Source: Hyphomicrobiales bacterium
GTDB taxonomy: Bacteria; Pseudomonadota; Alphaproteobacteria; Rhizobiales; Xanthobacteraceae
Length of the DNA stretch: 64,000 nucleotides
Direction: 5' to 3'
NCBI GenBank assembly: GCA_017305665.1
Contig: JAFKKH010000029.1
Coordinates: 1 to 64,000, forward strand
The translations under genes were made by a program, and so were the position numbers. A model generated the notes under the pieces. The model had not been told where the DNA came from. It saw only the letters and a list, made by a program, of their open reading frames with translations, and ran no database searches. Positions 1 to 8,833 of this stretch are shown piece by piece (position 1 is the stretch's first letter; every line of letters begins with the position of its first letter).

Positions 1-326
1 GCCATGCTATGGCGCGAGGCATCGCGCCGGGAGCACGCGACTTGGGCCGACGCGCGAAGCGATGTCAGTGGGGCGAATCTCCACCCCGGCCGCATCGCAC
101 AGCGTGGTCGTCAGCCGAAGGTCCGGTTCTCAAGCGCTCCTCCGAAGTCCGAACGGCCCTCCACAGGAGGAAACCGTCCGCGCTCCGGGCTCGCGCCCAA
201 AGACCTTCGCTCCGGCCTGACGCTGCCGCGTCCACCGCATCCCGCCCCGCGTATCGTGACGATCGCGAGCCGCCCCTCTCCGTTGAGGCAGGACGAATAG
301 GAATATAATCCATATAAAGAGGAATG
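1..326. other. Left-edge region without a supported gene; repeat-like
   Basis: No open frame here has a convincing ribosome binding site or a recognisable protein. The stretch is GC-rich, unlike the ATPase gene that follows. Read on the minus strand, the segment around 130-300 would encode Arg-rich peptides with a run such as RHDTRGGMRWTRQRQ. That pattern resembles, from memory, translated repetitive intergenic DNA common in Bradyrhizobium-type genomes. I infer a repeat or decayed intergenic segment. An AT-rich patch at about 299-320 marks the change to the ATPase gene 3' end. Confidence 0.35.
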
Positions 327-2612
327 TCAAGCCCGTCGCGTAAAGGCAACAATACGCTCACAAAAGTGTTGGAGCTCTTGATCGTTGATAATTTCGGTCT
401 GCCAAGTCGGATTATCGTGGTGAAATCTATTGCCATAATCGACCAAGTCTCTGAGTACAGCAGTGTCTACTGCATTCAAGATTTGATTGGGTTGACCGAC
501 GCGCTGAGAGCATATGGTTTGGAATTGCCCTAGCAAGGAATCCGGGGGGAAATCCTCGGGATATGCAACGCGCATAAAAGATTCCAACATGGGCCTTAAC
601 GACTGCGCAACTTCTCTCTGGTCTGCAACGTTGTTTGACGCAATGTAAGCGACCACCTTGGCGTGCCTTTTGTCGTGATCGGTTATTGAATCTTGTTGAA
701 CGTTCCAACCAATTAAATCTGAACCATCACGGTCGCGAACAACTTTGATCGCGGTTCGGGTAAATTTCTCAAACTTCTTCCACACCGCACATAAGAAAGG
801 TCGCGAGTGTGAAAGAACGATAACCTGAGATACTCTATCGACTAGTCGACCTAATTCTTGGACGGTAGTTGTTGAGCGACTTTCGTCCAAGCTAGTCATC
901 GGATCGTCAATTACGACAATCTTGTTTGAGAGTCGTGGATCTCCGTCGAGCGAGGCGAAGAAAAACGCAAGTGCTAGGGTGTTTCGGTCGCCTGCGCTTA
1001 GAGTATTTTTAAAAGCGGGGGTCCCTGGGGCGCCTGTGAGCGGGACCGATGTGTTGTCAATTACGACGTTATAGGTACATGATGACCCTCCGCGGCTATT
1101 CACAGACGTTACGCTGTCAAGCCGAAATCCTGCGCCGAATGCTCTTAGATATGAGTTGATTGCATTTTCATACGCAGGGAATACGCTTGCGCGATATTGT
1201 TCTAAGGCATCACGAGCCTGGTCGCGCAGTCCTTCCGTGATCTTTTTTGCTTTTTTTTCGTCCTGATACGCATCGCACAAGGGTGCTATTTTGGCGCTGT
1301 GCCGAGCTTCGGTCGCTTTCAATTTTTCTAGTTCGCCAGTGAGCGTTGCGATGTTTGCGGTCGCGGCTCTCTCTTTGACACTAGCTATTTGGTCGTTGAC
1401 GGATGTGAGTGTGCTGGAAGCGCTTGCCACCATGTCGCGCGCGCGATCGAAATCAGCGATCGCCCCTAGCGTGGCGGACGTCATTTCAAGGGGCTCAAGT
1501 GGCGCCGCTTGCTTCTTTTGAAGATCAGCAACTATAGCATCTCGCGCTATTTTCCAAGAAAGCGCAACAGCCGCCGTATCGACGGTTACCTTGGGAACGA
1601 TAACAAAATCCTTCCAAAAATTACGACGCTGTTCCCAGAGATGGACACTTCGCTCGAATGCGGCGGGAGCGTCACCGGCGTGAAATTTGCGAACTTCTTG
1701 CAAGGTAAGATCAATTTCGCGCTTTAATTGAGCATATGCTTCACTAAAGTATGAGCGGTAGTGCCCGATGAGTGGCGAGCCGCTAAGATTTTGAGCACAA
1801 AAGGGGCAGGCCTCGTCCGCCGTATCGCTTCGTATTATGCGGTGCATTCCATCTTCGACCCAGCGCTCACCGTCGCCGATTTCGGAAAAATGTTTCTGCA
1901 CTTGAGCAAATGCGGTTGTGTCTATTTCCGGCAGGCTTAGTTTGAAGAGGCTATTGAGCGCTATTGTATCAAAGCGCGGTAGCTCAATTTTGTTGAAGCC
2001 GTCCTCGCGTCTCACTGCGTCAGCAGCTTGAGCCGCATTAAGAGAGCGTTCTGCTTCAGATATTGCGCCGACTATGTTGGGGTTTTTTTTCAAGGCGCAA
2101 AATGCGTCTACAGTCAGACCGGCGCGTGCGGTTGCGGGTATCGCTGCTTCTTTAGTGCGAATGTCGCGATTGTGTTCTTCGATTTTGGAAACGTGAGCTT
2201 GCGCTGCTGCATTTAACGCGACGCCCTGAGCGCCGAGAATAAGTTCGTGTAGATTCTGTCGGTGACCGGGTTCGATATCGACGCCGGAGCATACATTTTG
2301 AGCTACAAATGCATCATCGAAAACCGCAAGGTCAGGGATTGTTGCCGACCATGTGCCATTCTGGAAAACATGGGGGGCTGTTCCAGCGACATTCACTACG
2401 ACATGAGGATCGTGTGCTGCAGTTAAGCGTTTTCGTTCGTTGATGTGAACAGGATCGCCGTCGCTTAGCGAGCGGAGTATGGCTGCGAGTGTAGTTTTTC
2501 CACGACCGTTTTCAGCAAAGATGAGAGTAGCTTTCGAGAAGGGGAGTTGTCGGCCCGAATTTACGGAATCAAACTTTCCCACGTTTCGCAGTAGAGAAAT
2601 TCGCTCAACCAA
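327..2612 (-). CDS. AAA_13-family ATPase with CPFC zinc-hook motif, RloC/PrrC-like candidate anticodon nuclease
   Basis: A 761-residue ABC/SMC-like ATPase. Walker A is ENGRGKTT (about residues 34-41), a coiled central region carries CPFC (269-272) like a Rad50 zinc hook, the signature-like LSAGD lies at about 538-542, Walker B IVVIDDPMTSLDE at about 565-577 and a His-loop LSHSRPF at about 600. The C-terminal 130 residues hold R673-x3-E677 and later R729-F-H-H (His 731/732). RloC and PrrC tRNA-cleaving nucleases of this family use an Arg-Glu-His set in the equivalent region, so an anticodon nuclease is a reasonable inference, not proven. The start is TTG at 2612, chosen because GGAGG lies six bases upstream; a longer frame to 2687 would run through the groESL terminator. 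Base composition is clearly lower in GC than the neighbours, suggesting transfer. No restriction-modification genes are visible beside it. Confidence 0.75.
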   Translation of the reverse strand: MVERISLLRNVGKFDSVNSGRQLPFSKATLIFAENGRGKTTLAAILRSLSDGDPVHINERKRLTAAHDPHVVVNVAGTAPHVFQNGTWSATIPDLAVFDDAFVAQNVCSGVDIEPGHRQNLHELILGAQGVALNAAAQAHVSKIEEHNRDIRTKEAAIPATARAGLTVDAFCALKKNPNIVGAISEAERSLNAAQAADAVRREDGFNKIELPRFDTIALNSLFKLSLPEIDTTAFAQVQKHFSEIGDGERWVEDGMHRIIRSDTADEACPFCAQNLSGSPLIGHYRSYFSEAYAQLKREIDLTLQEVRKFHAGDAPAAFERSVHLWEQRRNFWKDFVIVPKVTVDTAAVALSWKIARDAIVADLQKKQAAPLEPLEMTSATLGAIADFDRARDMVASASSTLTSVNDQIASVKERAATANIATLTGELEKLKATEARHSAKIAPLCDAYQDEKKAKKITEGLRDQARDALEQYRASVFPAYENAINSYLRAFGAGFRLDSVTSVNSRGGSSCTYNVVIDNTSVPLTGAPGTPAFKNTLSAGDRNTLALAFFFASLDGDPRLSNKIVVIDDPMTSLDESRSTTTVQELGRLVDRVSQVIVLSHSRPFLCAVWKKFEKFTRTAIKVVRDRDGSDLIGWNVQQDSITDHDKRHAKVVAYIASNNVADQREVAQSLRPMLESFMRVAYPEDFPPDSLLGQFQTICSQRVGQPNQILNAVDTAVLRDLVDYGNRFHHDNPTWQTEIINDQELQHFCERIVAFTRRA

Positions 2613-2674
2613 GACGAGCCTCCAATTCAGAAGCGGCAACCTTAGGTAGCAATCGGCTGTGGCCGACACAAACA

Positions 2675-2702
2675 AAAACCCCGGCATCGCTGCCGGGGTT
2701 TT
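2675..2702 (-). terminator. Intrinsic terminator behind groESL
   Basis: A perfect inverted repeat: arms AAAACCCCGGCA (2675-2686) and TGCCGGGGTTTT (2691-2702) around a 4-base loop. Read on the minus strand it is a GC stem followed by a T-run, so it should end the groESL transcript. The A-run on the other side makes it potentially bidirectional. The ATPase start codon lies only about 63 bases beyond it. Confidence 0.85.
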
Positions 2703-2731
2703 GCATTCTTGTAACTGCCTGAGAGGCTGGA

Positions 2732-4497
<1,766 letters not shown>

Positions 4498-4812
4498 TTA
4501 CGCGGCCTTCTTCTTGGAGGCGACGTCGGTGAGGACGCCCATGATGTCGCTCTCCTTCATGATGAGGAGCTCCTGGCCGTCGATCTTGACCTCGGTGCCG
4601 GACCACTTGCCGAACAGCACGCGGTCGCCGACCTTGAGATCGATCGGGATCAGCTTGCCGGCCTCGTCGCGGCCACCGGGGCCGACGGCGACGACTTCGC
4701 CCTGCGAGGGCTTTTCCTTGGCGCTGTCCGGAATGATGATGCCGCCTGCGGTCTTCTCTTCGGCGTCGATGCGCTTGACCACGACGCGGTCGTGAAGCGG
4801 ACGGAATTTCAT
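4498..4812 (-). CDS. groES: Co-chaperonin GroES (10 kDa subunit)
   Basis: Heptameric lid of the GroEL chamber. The 104-residue protein begins [14 protein letters not shown]. It carries the mobile-loop segment [18 protein letters not shown] (about residues 17-34) and the [11 protein letters not shown] region near the C-terminus. The ATG is preceded by AGGAGGA at good spacing. It is the first gene of the groES-groL operon. Confidence 0.98.
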
Positions 4813-4854
4813 GCAGTCCTCCTAAATAACTGTAACTGTTTGCAGTTTTGGAAG

Positions 4855-4881
4855 TTGGCAGTCGTGATAGGCGAGTGCTAC
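4855..4881 (-). promoter_or_regulatory. CIRCE operator for HrcA
   Basis: Read on the minus strand the site is GTAGCACTC, nine bases, GACTGCCAA. The consensus is TTAGCACTC-N9-GAGTGCTAA, so 8 of 9 and 7 of 9 positions match. It lies between the predicted transcription start and groES, the usual place for HrcA repression of groESL. Confidence 0.85.
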
Positions 4882-4896
4882 CACGACCTTTGCGGG

Positions 4897-4925
4897 ACAT
4901 AGGCCCATTGATGTTGGCGGGCAAG
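4897..4925 (-). promoter_or_regulatory. Sigma-32 (RpoH) heat-shock promoter of groESL
   Basis: On the minus strand CTTG (4925-4922) is followed after 18 bases by CCTATGT (4903-4897). This fits the alphaproteobacterial RpoH pattern CTTG-N17/18-CYTATnT. The expected start point falls just upstream of the CIRCE site, giving dual sigma-32 and HrcA control. Confidence 0.8.
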
Positions 4926-4942
4926 AGGCTCTAGCAAAAATT

Positions 4943-4969
4943 TTGGCACTCTAAAATTCCGACTGCCAG
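4943..4969. promoter_or_regulatory. Second, degenerate CIRCE-like inverted repeat
   Basis: TTGGCACTC, nine bases, GACTGCCAG: 8 of 9 and about 6 of 9 matches to the two CIRCE half-sites with the correct 9-base spacer. It sits upstream of the sigma-32 -35 element, so it cannot act in the same way as the downstream operator. It may be an auxiliary HrcA site or a decayed copy. Confidence 0.55.
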
Positions 4970-5226
4970 ACATCCCGCCGTCATCGTTAACGGCCCTCGG
5001 ATTGTTGTTAGCAGCCGCGCGGTAAGTCGCTGCCAGCACTCGTATATCAACACTTTATTAAACTTTTAAGCTTGTGATCGATGTGTGTCGTGCGTCACAT
5101 TTTCTTCGTAACCGGCTGTGGGATGGTGACCGTCAAGGCGTTGGTCCCGAAAGCAGGTTGGTCGAGGGATTGGAGCGCTACCGCAAAACCGGTCGCCACG
5201 TTTGCCGATAGCGCTGCCTTCCAGGG
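4970..5226. other. Intergenic region between groESL promoter and usg
   Basis: No supported gene. It is AT-richer near 5045-5080 (runs such as TTTATTAAACTTTTAAGC), where a promoter for usg may lie. A long frame upstream of usg from 5081 is in frame with it, but lacks a ribosome binding site and has non-Usg sequence. Confidence 0.5.
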
Positions 5227-5270
5227 CATGGTCCCGAAAAGTGGACCCCCGGTTTTCGGACCAGGCCATG
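5227..5270. repeat. Short palindromic intergenic repeat (GGTCCCGAAAA type)
   Basis: Imperfect inverted repeat: CATGGTCCCGAAAA (5227-5240) against TTTTCGGACCAGGCCATG (5253-5270). A related GGTCCCGAAA occurs at 5143. The layout resembles a short element common between genes in Bradyrhizobium-type genomes; that attribution is from memory. Confidence 0.55.
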
Positions 5271-5293
5271 CCTCCACAGAGAAGGAGGTTGGC

Positions 5294-5596
5294 ATGGTCT
5301 CGAAGGGTGGAGTGCAGCCTGGCGGGGTCGTCTCCGACGACTTTCGCAAGCAGGTTCTGGGATATGGCCTGACCACGGCGGAAATCCTGTACCGCCGTCC
5401 GGACCGCAAGTGGCTGCTGCAGAGCTACGTCTGGCAGAACTACGACCTGTTTCCCAAATTTCCGGCGCTGCGCGACTTCCTCGCGTTCTGGGAGAAGGAG
5501 ATCGAGGGTCCGCTGTTCTCCGTCACGATCGCGCATTCGAAACTGATCAAACCCGCGGAGCTGCGCGCGGTGGACGGCGTGTTCCGCCTGCACTGA
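5294..5596 (+). CDS. usg: Usg family protein
   Basis: A 100-residue protein matching the alphaproteobacterial Usg family, recognisable by DFRKQVLGYGLTTAEILYRRPD, LLQSYVWQNYDLFPKFPALRDFLAFWE and the ending HSKLIKPAELRAVDGVFRLH. Its molecular function is not established. The ATG at 5294 is chosen because AAGGAGG lies five bases upstream. Usg proteins usually begin within a few residues of the DFRKQ block, so the in-frame extension to 5081 is rejected. It appears monocistronic. Confidence 0.85.
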   Translation: MVSKGGVQPGGVVSDDFRKQVLGYGLTTAEILYRRPDRKWLLQSYVWQNYDLFPKFPALRDFLAFWEKEIEGPLFSVTIAHSKLIKPAELRAVDGVFRLH

Positions 5597-5700
5597 AGGC
5601 TGCATTGCGTGTTGTGAGCGTCATCGGACGCGACTAACCTTCTCCATGCTGCGTCGCTGCGGTTCGCGCGACGCCGCGAGCAAGGGAAGGGACACGGCCG

Positions 5701-6318
5701 ATGGCAAAAGCAAAAGCGAAGACAGCAAAAGCACGCTCCGCGGCGAAGTCAGCCGCACGCAAGACCTCCACGCGCAAGACCTCCAGCCGTCGCAAGGTCG
5801 CGGCCCGCGCGACATCGGCGCGCCGCAAGTCTTCGGCCAAATCTTCGGTCAAGTCCGCTGCGAAGTCCGCGCGCAAGGTTGCCCGCAAGGTCGCGAAGCC
5901 GAAAGCCGCCCGCGCTGCCGCGAAGCCGAAGCGTCCGCCGCAGAAAGTCGCGATCAGCCATTACAACAACGCGGATTTCGAGTCGGGCCTGCGCACCTAT
6001 GCGCAGTATCGCGATCTCGGCATCGTGGAAGCATCGAACGGCATGGCGCGCGCGCACGTGCTGCGCTTCGTCGAACCGTGCGATCCGGATGTGGTGTCGA
6101 AGCTGCACTTTCACGACACCGAATTCCAGATGGTCTACGTGCTCAAGGGCTGGGTGAAGACCGAGCTCGAAGGCGAGGGCGAGGTGACCATGCGCCAGGG
6201 TTCGGCGTGGACCCAGCCGCCGAAGATCAAGCACAAGATCAACGACTATTCCGAGGACGCCGAACTGCTCGAGATCGTCCTGCCGGCGGACTTCGAGACG
6301 GTGGAGCTCGCGGGGTAG
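5701..6318 (+). CDS. Cupin-domain protein with histone-H1-like Lys/Ala N-terminal tail
   Basis: The 205-residue product is a fusion of two unlike parts. Residues 1 to about 78 are almost only Lys, Ala, Ser, Arg and Thr (starting MAKAKAKTAKARSAAKSAAR), a low-complexity basic tail as in bacterial H1-like or AlgP-like nucleoid proteins. Residues about 80-205 form a single cupin barrel with HFHDTEFQMVYVLKGWVK (motif 1, metal-binding His/Glu) and QGSAWTQPPKIKHKI (motif 2). The ligand and reaction are unknown. The tail may bind nucleic acid or polyanions, which is inference. AAGGGA lies about eight bases upstream of the ATG. The gene stands alone, followed by a palindromic repeat. Confidence 0.85.
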   Translation: MAKAKAKTAKARSAAKSAARKTSTRKTSSRRKVAARATSARRKSSAKSSVKSAAKSARKVARKVAKPKAARAAAKPKRPPQKVAISHYNNADFESGLRTYAQYRDLGIVEASNGMARAHVLRFVEPCDPDVVSKLHFHDTEFQMVYVLKGWVKTELEGEGEVTMRQGSAWTQPPKIKHKINDYSEDAELLEIVLPADFETVELAG

Positions 6319-6334
6319 GGCGGCACTCACTCTT

Positions 6335-6481
6335 CGTCATTCCGGGGCGCGAGTGAAACGAGCGAGCCCGGAATCCATACGCCTAGCGTCTGTGTGACAC
6401 CGGGCGATCTTTACGGTGATTTATAATGAATACAGGGGTTATGGATTCCGGATCGCCGCTTGCGCGGCGTCCGGAATGACG
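6335..6481. repeat. CGTCATTCCGG-type palindromic intergenic repeat, copy 1
   Basis: Begins CGTCATTCCGGGGCGCGAG and ends GGCGTCCGGAATGACG, with an internal GGAATCCAT...ATGGATTCC pair, so the whole unit can fold back. The centre is interrupted by about 50 bases of AT-richer sequence. It lies between convergent genes. Confidence 0.8.
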
Positions 6482-6484
6482 ACC

Positions 6485-7576
6485 TCACTCGACCAGATAC
6501 TTTTTCACCGCGGCCTCGTCCCACGCGATGCCGCTGCCGGGCTGTTCGCCGGGCAGCACGTGGCCGTCCTTCACCTTGAGCGGCTCGCGCAGCACGGCAT
6601 CGGCCCAGTCGACATATTCCAGCCAGTGCGCGGTCGGCGTCACCGTCATCAGGTGCGCGCTGACCTCCGAGAACAGGTGCGACGACATCTCGACGCCCGC
6701 GGCATGGGCCAGCGCGGCGGCACGCAGCCATCCGGTGACGCCGCCGATGCGCTGGGCATCCGGCATCACGAAGTCGCAGGCGTGATGATCGAGTGCCGTC
6801 TGCATGGAAAACGCGCTGTCGAAGTTCTCGCCGATCTGGATCGGCGTTTGCGTCGCGGCCGCGACCTCGGCGCAGCCGGCATAGTCGTCGTGGCGGATCG
6901 GCTCCTCGATCCAGAGCAGGCCTTCGCCATCGAGCATGGCGCCGCGGCGGACGGCGTCCGCGACCGTAAGCGCCTGATTGAAGTCGCACATCAAGGTCAC
7001 ACCATCGCCGACCGCCTTGCGCACCGCGCGCACCGTTTTCAGGTCGTCGTTCGCATCGGGACGGCCGAGGCGGATCTTTGCCGCGTCAAAACCTTCCGCG
7101 ATCAGCTTTTGCGCTTCGTCGGCGGCGGCTTCGGGCGGCATGATACCGAGCCCCTTGGAATTGTAGGCGCGGATCGGCTTCGGCACGCCGCCGAGCAGCC
7201 GCGCCAGCGGCAGGTTGCGGCCGTGAGCGAGCGCGTCCCACACCGCCATGTCGATGCCCGATTGCGCCAGCCGCTGGATGCCGGCGAGATCGAGCAGCGC
7301 GAATGCCCGCGTCAGCTTGCGCTCGATGTCGTGCGGGATCAGTTCGTCGCCCGCGATCAACTCCGCCATGGCGCGAACCATCTCGGTCAGCGGCTTCAGC
7401 GCCACCGGAGTGATCGCGAAGATATAGCTGTGACCGCGTACGCCCTGATCGGTCTCGCAATCGATCAGCACCAGCGGCGCCTTGTCGACCGCGCCGGAAC
7501 TCGTTCGCAGCGGCATCTTCATCGGTGCGAGGACGGGGCGCGCGTTGAAGCGCTTGATGCGGAGGGTGTCGGACAT
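6485..7576 (-). CDS. Mandelate racemase/muconate lactonizing enzyme family protein
   Basis: Enolase-superfamily enzyme of 363 residues, expected to abstract an alpha-proton from a carboxylate. Substrate is not predictable. Visible catalytic set: K167-x-R169 (AKIRLG, a K-x-R variant of the usual K-x-K), metal ligands D198 (CDFN), E224 (IEEP) and E250 (GEN), D273 (PDAQRIGG) and H300 (SSHLF). The capping domain is residues 1 to about 125. It follows chrA by 24 bases on the same strand and may be co-transcribed. The K-x-R motif suggests a dehydratase or epimerase subgroup other than mandelate racemase proper. Confidence 0.88.
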   Translation of the reverse strand: MSDTLRIKRFNARPVLAPMKMPLRTSSGAVDKAPLVLIDCETDQGVRGHSYIFAITPVALKPLTEMVRAMAELIAGDELIPHDIERKLTRAFALLDLAGIQRLAQSGIDMAVWDALAHGRNLPLARLLGGVPKPIRAYNSKGLGIMPPEAAADEAQKLIAEGFDAAKIRLGRPDANDDLKTVRAVRKAVGDGVTLMCDFNQALTVADAVRRGAMLDGEGLLWIEEPIRHDDYAGCAEVAAATQTPIQIGENFDSAFSMQTALDHHACDFVMPDAQRIGGVTGWLRAAALAHAAGVEMSSHLFSEVSAHLMTVTPTAHWLEYVDWADAVLREPLKVKDGHVLPGEQPGSGIAWDEAAVKKYLVE

Positions 7577-7600
7577 GAGCGGTCTCCTGAAGATCAGACA

Positions 7601-8833
7601 TTAGAAGCGGCCGAGCAGGCCGCCGCACAGCGCGCACACTAGCACGACGAGCCACGGCGGCGTTCGCCAGGCTTGCAGAAGAGCGAAAGCGCCGACGGCG
7701 AGTGCGAAGTCGGCGCTGCCGTGGATCGCCGAGGTCCAGACCGGATTGTAAAATGCCGCCAGCAGCAAACCCACGACCGCGGCGTTGACGCCGCGCAGCG
7801 CCGCCTGCATCGCCGTCACGCGTCGCAAGCGTTGCCAGAACGGCAGAACGCCGCCGATCAGCAGGAATGACGGCAGGTAAATCGCCGCGAGGCAGATGGC
7901 CGCCGACGTCAGACCTCCGATGACGGTGCCCACATAGGCCGAGAAGGTGAAAAGCGGTCCGGGAACGGCCTGTGCCGCGCCATATCCGGCGAGAAAGGCA
8001 TCGTTGCGGATCAACCCGGTTGGCACCAGTTCGGACTGCAACAGCGGAAGAACGACGTGTCCGCCGCCGAACACCAGCGAGCCGACGCGATAGAACGTGT
8101 CGAACAGGCGAAGGTCTGTACTCGTGCTCCCGGCCGCGAGCAGGGGAAGCCCAAGAAGCAGCACGAAGAACATGGCGATGAGTAAGGCGCCGGTGCGCCG
8201 CCGGACCGGAATTTTCAGGTCGTCGGAGACAGCCGGCGCGTCCGCCCTGAGCAGGGTCGCACCTGCGAGGGCGCCCGCGGCAATCGCAACGAGTTGGCCG
8301 ACGGCGGACGGCAGCGCGATGACGAGGATCGCGGCAACGACCGCAAAGGTCGCCCGTATCCTGTCGGGCGTCAGCGTACGGATCATGCCGAGCAGGGCGA
8401 CGGCCACCACCGAAACGGCGGCGATCTTGAGGCCGTGCAGCCAGCCGCTGTCGGCAAGCGAGCCGGCAGCCGAGACGCCGTAGGCAAACAGCACCATGAC
8501 GATCGCGGATGGCAGCGTGAAACCGCACCAGGCCGCCAGCGCACCGCTCCATCCCGCTCGCACGAGCCCGATGGTCAGGCCAACCTGGCTGGAGGCCGGC
8601 CCCGGAAGAAACTGGCACAGGGCCAGGATGTCGGCGTAAGTCGGCTCGTCGAGCCATTTGCGGCGGATGACGAACTCGTTGTGGAAGTAGCCGAGATGAG
8701 CAACCGGCCCGCCGAACGATGTCAGGCCGAGCTTGAGGAAGGCCAGCAGCACTTCGTCCGCACGCCCGGGCGGCCTGCCGTCGCCATCGTTGTGACCGGC
8801 GGACGACGGATTGACTGCATTCGCTCCGACCAT
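7601..8833 (-). CDS. chrA: Chromate transporter ChrA (two-domain)
   Basis: Inner-membrane CHR-family chromate efflux protein, 410 residues with two homologous halves of about six helices each. The halves are marked by FLKLGLTSFGGPVAHLGYF (N-half) and FYRVGSLVFGGGHVVLPLL (C-half), plus QFLPGPASSQ and AQAVPGPLFTFSAYVG motifs. The ATG at 8833 is chosen at the beginning of the conserved region; an upstream in-frame extension overlaps the nucleoside transporter and is not protein-like. It starts 9 bases behind the CNT transporter, so the two are probably one operon. No ChrB regulator is visible. Confidence 0.9.
   Translation of the reverse strand: MVGANAVNPSSAGHNDGDGRPPGRADEVLLAFLKLGLTSFGGPVAHLGYFHNEFVIRRKWLDEPTYADILALCQFLPGPASSQVGLTIGLVRAGWSGALAAWCGFTLPSAIVMVLFAYGVSAAGSLADSGWLHGLKIAAVSVVAVALLGMIRTLTPDRIRATFAVVAAILVIALPSAVGQLVAIAAGALAGATLLRADAPAVSDDLKIPVRRRTGALLIAMFFVLLLGLPLLAAGSTSTDLRLFDTFYRVGSLVFGGGHVVLPLLQSELVPTGLIRNDAFLAGYGAAQAVPGPLFTFSAYVGTVIGGLTSAAICLAAIYLPSFLLIGGVLPFWQRLRRVTAMQAALRGVNAAVVGLLLAAFYNPVWTSAIHGSADFALAVGAFALLQAWRTPPWLVVLVCALCGGLLGRF

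Follow-up and report, generated by a model that had tools for sequence, protein, structure and literature searches.

An apparently solitary RloC-like ATPase gene with a predicted RNA-cutting domain in a variable gap behind groESL

Introduction

The anticodon nucleases RloC and PrrC combine an ABC ATPase with a C-terminal nuclease domain that has been assigned to HEPN in both proteins (PMC3710099). RloC is defined by its ABC motifs, a CXXC hook, the pattern R-x3-E-x36-52-H, a length of 658–897 residues and the cleavage of tRNA anticodons with excision of the wobble nucleotide, and 8 of 73 RloC proteins were linked to type I or III restriction-modification (R-M) systems (PMC2610378). RloC is activated by DNA breaks (PMC3874168), a role as guard has been put forward for PrrC (PMC12707154) and HEPN clades, some of them RloC-like, have already been reported to be linked to R-M genes (PMC3710099). 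Here we describe a gene at positions 327–2612 of a stretch of 64,000 nucleotides from a Hyphomicrobiales bacterium (contig JAFKKH010000029.1, our C21), which we refer to as the window and which starts at base 1 of the contig. The gene reads as a recent arrival, a copy one gene long of a known type of bacterial self-defence enzyme, which would join a DNA-sensing ATPase to a predicted RNA-cutting domain.

Results

The protein ends in a predicted HEPN-like domain that carries an R-x3-E...H triad. Its conservation was followed in an alignment (A1) of the window protein with 26 full-length relatives of 24–57% identity, 13 from plasmid loci and 13 from genomes, which were picked by a match of more than 690 residues, a choice that may favour a kept C-terminus; the loci L002, L003, L004, L018, L019 and L025 were left out due to a partial match or a broken gene. 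A second set outside this choice comprises 11 rows, namely the window, one piece of a metagenome-assembled genome (MAG) and nine loci from viral contigs. The features of the gene, with invariance referring to all 27 proteins of A1, are:

327 to 2612, minus strand: ABC-HEPN (RloC-like) gene, 761 residues, TTG start and TGA stop (AAA_13 7.9e-34, PDC-S06 1.5e-68)
330 to 707, minus strand: C-terminal HEPN-like domain, residues 636–761, from fold searches of the predicted structure
594 to 596, minus strand: R673 of the triad, 27/27 in A1 and 11/11 in the second set
582 to 584, minus strand: E677 of the triad, 27/27 and 11/11
417 to 419, minus strand: H732 of the triad, 27/27 and 11/11
2490 to 2513, minus strand: Walker A ENGRGKTT, residues 34–41, with N35, G38, K39 and T41 invariant
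1797 to 1808, minus strand: CPFC zinc-hook motif, residues 269–272, with C269, P270 and C272 invariant, located between helices in the model
984 to 1001, minus strand: ABC signature LSAGDR, residues 538–543, with S539, G541 and D542 invariant and L538 in 26/27
885 to 923, minus strand: Walker B and D-loop, residues 564–576, with D569, D570, P571, S574 and D576 invariant
807 to 809, minus strand: H602, position of the linchpin histidine, invariant (role from PMC2610378)
2619 to 2623, minus strand: GGAGG at a distance of 6 nt upstream of the TTG, read by eye, a likely ribosome-binding site

R673, E677 and H732 are the sole invariant residues within positions 613–761, and the triad is thus more than a chance motif. 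The preceding H731 varies (25/27), and the spacing between glutamate and histidine, x54 in the window protein, ranges from 49 to 58 across the 27 proteins. The arginine, the glutamate and the second histidine are also kept in all rows of the second set, and the partial match L003 shows R, E and Ser-His at the columns of the window triad. In searches with the predicted C-terminal fold, 2hsb ranked first in both cases and HEPN stood in the titles of 11 among the first 23 rows of VIA, which has to be read with the caution that helical bundles demand. The original prediction, made from the letters of the window, had proposed an ABC ATPase of the RloC kind that carries a nuclease domain and had tied this idea to residues 673, 677 and 731/732 and to a HEPN-like C-terminus; the conserved triad and the modelled fold lend support to this proposal, with 732 as the invariant histidine.

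Other approaches contributed less to the assignment of this domain. A PHROGs search of the C-terminal domain returned no match, the PDB, searched by phmmer and by profile, yielded mostly matches to ATPase heads and coiled coils and none identifying a nuclease domain, and fold searches with the full-length model, dominated by Rad50/SMC and phage recombination ATPases, were uninformative on the C-terminus. A loose pattern R-x3-E-x34-60-H was found within the last 170 residues in 50 of 61 rows of MAG and viral-contig frames but was given no weight, as it also matched a piece without a C-terminus. A mixed alignment (A2, 38 proteins with 12–52% identity to the window protein) called H732 invariant by matching it to another column, an 'HY' in remote proteins; since A2 misplaces the histidine, it was not used for the triad, for which we relied on A1 and A3.

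The ATPase part is preserved in full as well. In A1, 33 columns are invariant in 27/27 proteins, which cover Walker A, CP-x-C, the signature, Walker B/D-loop (VIDDPMTSLD, residues 567–576) and other positions and include C269, P270, C272, D569, D570, H602, R673, E677 and H732. The motifs and the C-terminal Arg-x3-Glu plus His set named in the original prediction are thus all present with an invariant core. Long helices flank CPFC on both sides in the predicted model. The window copy retains 33/33 of the columns that are invariant in the other 26 proteins and 202 of 220 columns invariant in eight close relatives, each of which scores similarly when left out, and by its sequence the gene is complete. 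Its start residue coincides with a start codon in 12 of 18 relatives, and an alternative longer ATG start at 2687 would lie inside the groEL terminator. The gene is lower in GC than its surroundings, as had been noticed before, with a value of 0.502 vs 0.631 for the window, where the lowest stretch of 2286 bp starting past 2700 reaches 0.596.

With respect to family, the protein matches AAA_13 in Pfam (PF13166; 7.9e-34, 117.8 bits vs a cutoff of 36), and it is the sole AAA_13 locus found in the genome. Its best match in PADLOC is PDC-S06 (1.5e-68, residues 1–690), far ahead of LmuB (4.4e-15) and PrrC (1.1e-07, residues 562–662), and no match in NCBIfam reached its cutoff. The PADLOC PrrC profile finds genes in 5 of 190 genomes of the class. 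A PrrC profile from these five genomes aligns with A2 at probability 98 (E 1.5e-13), placing the PrrC LRxxxEK helix on LR673PMLE677 with the histidine unaligned, and with A1 at probability 96.1, covering the ATPase only. By eye, the 'R-x3-E...SH' of PrrC and L003 and the 'R-x3-E-x54-H' of the window protein are one pattern.

The distribution of the family is sporadic and mobile. None of eight other genomes of the same genus, two of which are 89% complete, carries the gene (E 1e-10), which is found in 8 of 296 genomes of the family (1e-20) and in 9 of 385 of the class (1e-40), its own genome included in both counts. Matches were obtained in 45 of 72,556 plasmid records, 23 of them typed conjugative, and, weakly, in 1 of 50,697 phage records. 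Broken or partial copies are present at L004, L025, L018/L019 and L002, which suggests frequent gain and loss of the family.

Restriction genes are found near many of the closer relatives. Among 11 loci with about 46–59% identity by aligned piece (L004, L005, L013, L014, L020–L025, L076), six have a gene for a restriction endonuclease or for type I R-M at a distance of up to about 3 kb. These are a PaeR7I-type pair directly upstream in L021, a BsuBI/PstI-type pair in L022, type I genes upstream in L023, an Eco29kI-type gene beside the broken copy L025, an Mrr_cat gene in L013 (the same as L142), and in L076 (51% identity, 118–7642) the succession N6_Mtase, Methylase_S, ABC-HEPN gene and HSDR_N with overlapping ends, an arrangement known for prrC. 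As far as scanned, no restriction gene is close to L004, L005, L014, L020 and L024; a DNA methylase gene that lies upstream of L005 at about 2.8 kb, past a terminase-like gene, was not counted. Selected open reading frames (ORFs) were scanned for L004, L005, L013, L014, L024 and L076, four of five near L024 being without a Pfam match, so that misses are possible, and the PLSDB gene tables used for plasmids are incomplete. Of 185 features listed in four stretches of 50 kb at other places on the L020–L023 plasmids, none is named as a restriction gene, with one unspecific S-adenosylmethionine methyltransferase left uncounted. Eight remoter plasmid relatives are mixed: DNA methylases lie close to L068 and L072 and a DUF262 gene lies close to L069, but no restriction gene is listed near L070, L071, L073, L074 and L075. 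A linkage of RloC to type II restriction is not described in the accessible portions of PMC12322248, PMC12707154 and PMC3506569 and may still be published. A distant relative in genome G633 adjoins a reverse-transcriptase (RVT_1) gene (L146 5588–7321).

In the window, the gene follows a chaperonin operon on the same strand, at a distance of 205 bp from the groEL stop codon to its own start codon:

2672 to 2702, minus strand: groEL terminator-like hairpin with T-run; a stretch of 56 nt reaches a folding energy of -25.8 kcal/mol (z -3.45)
2818 to 4458, minus strand: a gene that we take from its sequence to be groEL, upstream and co-directional
4498 to 4812, minus strand: presumably groES, likewise named from sequence
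1 to 331, no strand assigned: dispersed repeat at the contig end, whose shared bases run through the stop codon of the ABC-HEPN gene

Homology with five genus mates (G002–G006) spans groEL and ends at or before window position 2669, by the terminator. In these genomes, where genes were named by sequence reading, groEL faces a conserved glycosyltransferase gene, which is one of a pair in four, the stretch of G004 ending in the first gene. The content of the gap varies, with nothing of at least 120 residues in G002 and DUF4142- and VOC-like genes in G004. In G006, the same reading places a small gene and a PIN-like toxin gene (L055 3106–3932) in this gap, downstream of groEL. In the genome of the window, the glycosyltransferase pair is located near the end of contig C30. 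The repeat, about 0.56 kb long on C22, is found at the ends of C21, C30 and C46 and at C22:69310–69597 and C28:56289–56380, and its edge shows TTGACA followed by an AT-rich stretch. The ends of C30 and C21 are halves of one repeat (C30 the left half), and since both are joined on C22, the end of C30 and the start of C21 would nearly abut by that template. The inserted segment thus delimited (about 332–2668, GC 0.504) holds one gene, which seems to have entered a variable gap in this lineage specifically and is read as an accessory gene. It would have come to lie behind groESL by insertion between the groEL terminator and the repeat, and not through a role for the chaperonin. A functional meaning of this setting, which the original prediction had called unusual, finds no support.

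The gene is apparently solitary. The original prediction had seen no restriction partner in view, which is supported for 10 of the 12 ORFs listed at 5.0–17.3 kb (of 57 in the entire window), as these had no match in PADLOC at 1e-5. A search of the genome for HSDR_N gave no match. A partner hidden beyond the contig end is unlikely by the abutment described above, an argument from inference since C46 also ends in the repeat. The genome has one N6_Mtase, which is part of a Type_ISP_C protein on contig C37. This protein (L153 4525–7932), which may act in trans as a partner for modification or restriction, has 1135 residues with N6_Mtase and Type_ISP_C matches and none to a helicase or HSDR_N at 0.001.

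Discussion

Our results make it likely that the gene was acquired horizontally and encodes a solitary ABC-HEPN protein of the RloC type for abortive defence, whose HEPN domain cuts RNA, most probably tRNA anticodon loops. By analogy with the biochemistry of RloC and PrrC, from which the RNase activity, its tRNA target, the trigger and the defensive role are taken, the Rad50/SMC-like head (residues 1–635), split by the helical CPFC insert, would bind ATP and probably DNA ends and keep the HEPN domain at the C-terminus inactive. A change of the DNA- or ATP-bound state through phage attack or other damage, or the defeat of a restriction enzyme, would free this domain to cut RNA by means of R673, E677 and H732, thereby stopping translation and aborting the infection.

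The clade pairs by species with type I genes (inside hsdM-hsdS-gene-hsdR) or with PaeR7I-, BsuBI/PstI-, Eco29kI-type or Mrr-like genes. We tentatively consider, as a rather doubtful extension, that the clade is therefore a guard with exchangeable partners, which would sense what failed restriction has in common, broken or unrestricted DNA, instead of one partner protein, and that the window copy would be a partner-free descendant acting alone or in trans.

Rather unlikely is a protein of the same architecture and trigger whose HEPN domain cuts mRNA or rRNA in place of tRNA anticodon loops, since the residue pattern and the fusion to an ABC ATPase match the two known anticodon nucleases. The Rad50 and SMC heads that best match the full-length model, and a match to the SbcC-like phrog_77 (4.1e-11), would also suit a Rad50/SbcC-like repair or structural ATPase with a non-nuclease C-terminal domain, which we regard as improbable in light of a triad that stays invariant within an otherwise variable domain, the HEPN-like fold, the sporadic, plasmid-borne distribution and 13 annotated neighbourhoods of relatives in which no Mre11/SbcD-like gene is named. 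Least credible is a heat-shock inducible nuclease whose function relies on read-through from groESL, where the shared strand, the 205 bp gap and a distance from terminator to start that seems to leave a promoter little space are countered by the strong terminator-like hairpin in between, the insertion at a variable gap, the absence of the gene in 8/8 genus mates and the lack of a listed chaperonin gene in the same 13 neighbourhoods, whose gene tables are incomplete, and we thus reject a functional link.

With the RloC-type protein favoured here, the RloC-like proteins gain a proteobacterial branch with fully kept triad, zinc hook and ATPase, which is often found beside one or another of various unrelated restriction systems. 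This branch would suit the question of what RloC-type enzymes sense as their signal, be it a partner protein, as in the case of PrrC, or the broken DNA itself. The groESL setting alone teaches nothing more than that the insertion site is variable.

Among described systems, the heads of Rad50, SbcC and SMC proteins and Lamassu LmuB share an ATPase head with a coiled-coil insert. Lamassu is not known to have the C-terminal region of RloC. Rad50 and SbcC are described as equally devoid of it (PMC2610378). PDC-S06, the best family match, is a candidate family only, which appears as a table entry in PMC11514479. With PrrC, the protein shares the ABC ATPase and the C-terminal R-x3-E...H nuclease pattern, and, like prrC, its relative L076 is located within a type I operon. 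However, PrrC is about half as long and has no zinc-hook insert (PMC2610378), its length is 341–416 residues with a link to a type I R-M locus, and its PADLOC profile covers only residues 562–662 of the window protein; membership in PrrC is ruled out by the length of 761 residues, the CPFC insert, this weak match and the absence of HSDR_N from the genome. ABC-HEPN proteins similar to RloC have been reported from mobile neighbourhoods with R-M genes, where the available text does not name the type II pairs seen beside the window clade (PMC3710099). The closest resemblance is to RloC, including the proteins of Geobacillus kaustophilus and Acinetobacter baylyi, with which the window protein shares its size, the Walker A, signature, Walker B/D-loop and linchpin histidine, a helical CXXC insert, here a predicted zinc hook, that splits the ATPase, and the R-x3-E...H triad, besides a location that for RloC is mostly away from type I/III systems and the rare start codons reported there (PMC2610378). 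It differs in that its close relatives often adjoin restriction systems, type II included, and in a histidine preceding the catalytic one, which is frequently serine in RloC. With a spacing of 54 compared to the published 36–52 (PMC2610378), the protein, likened by published description, would fit the definition of RloC save for two residues in this spacing.
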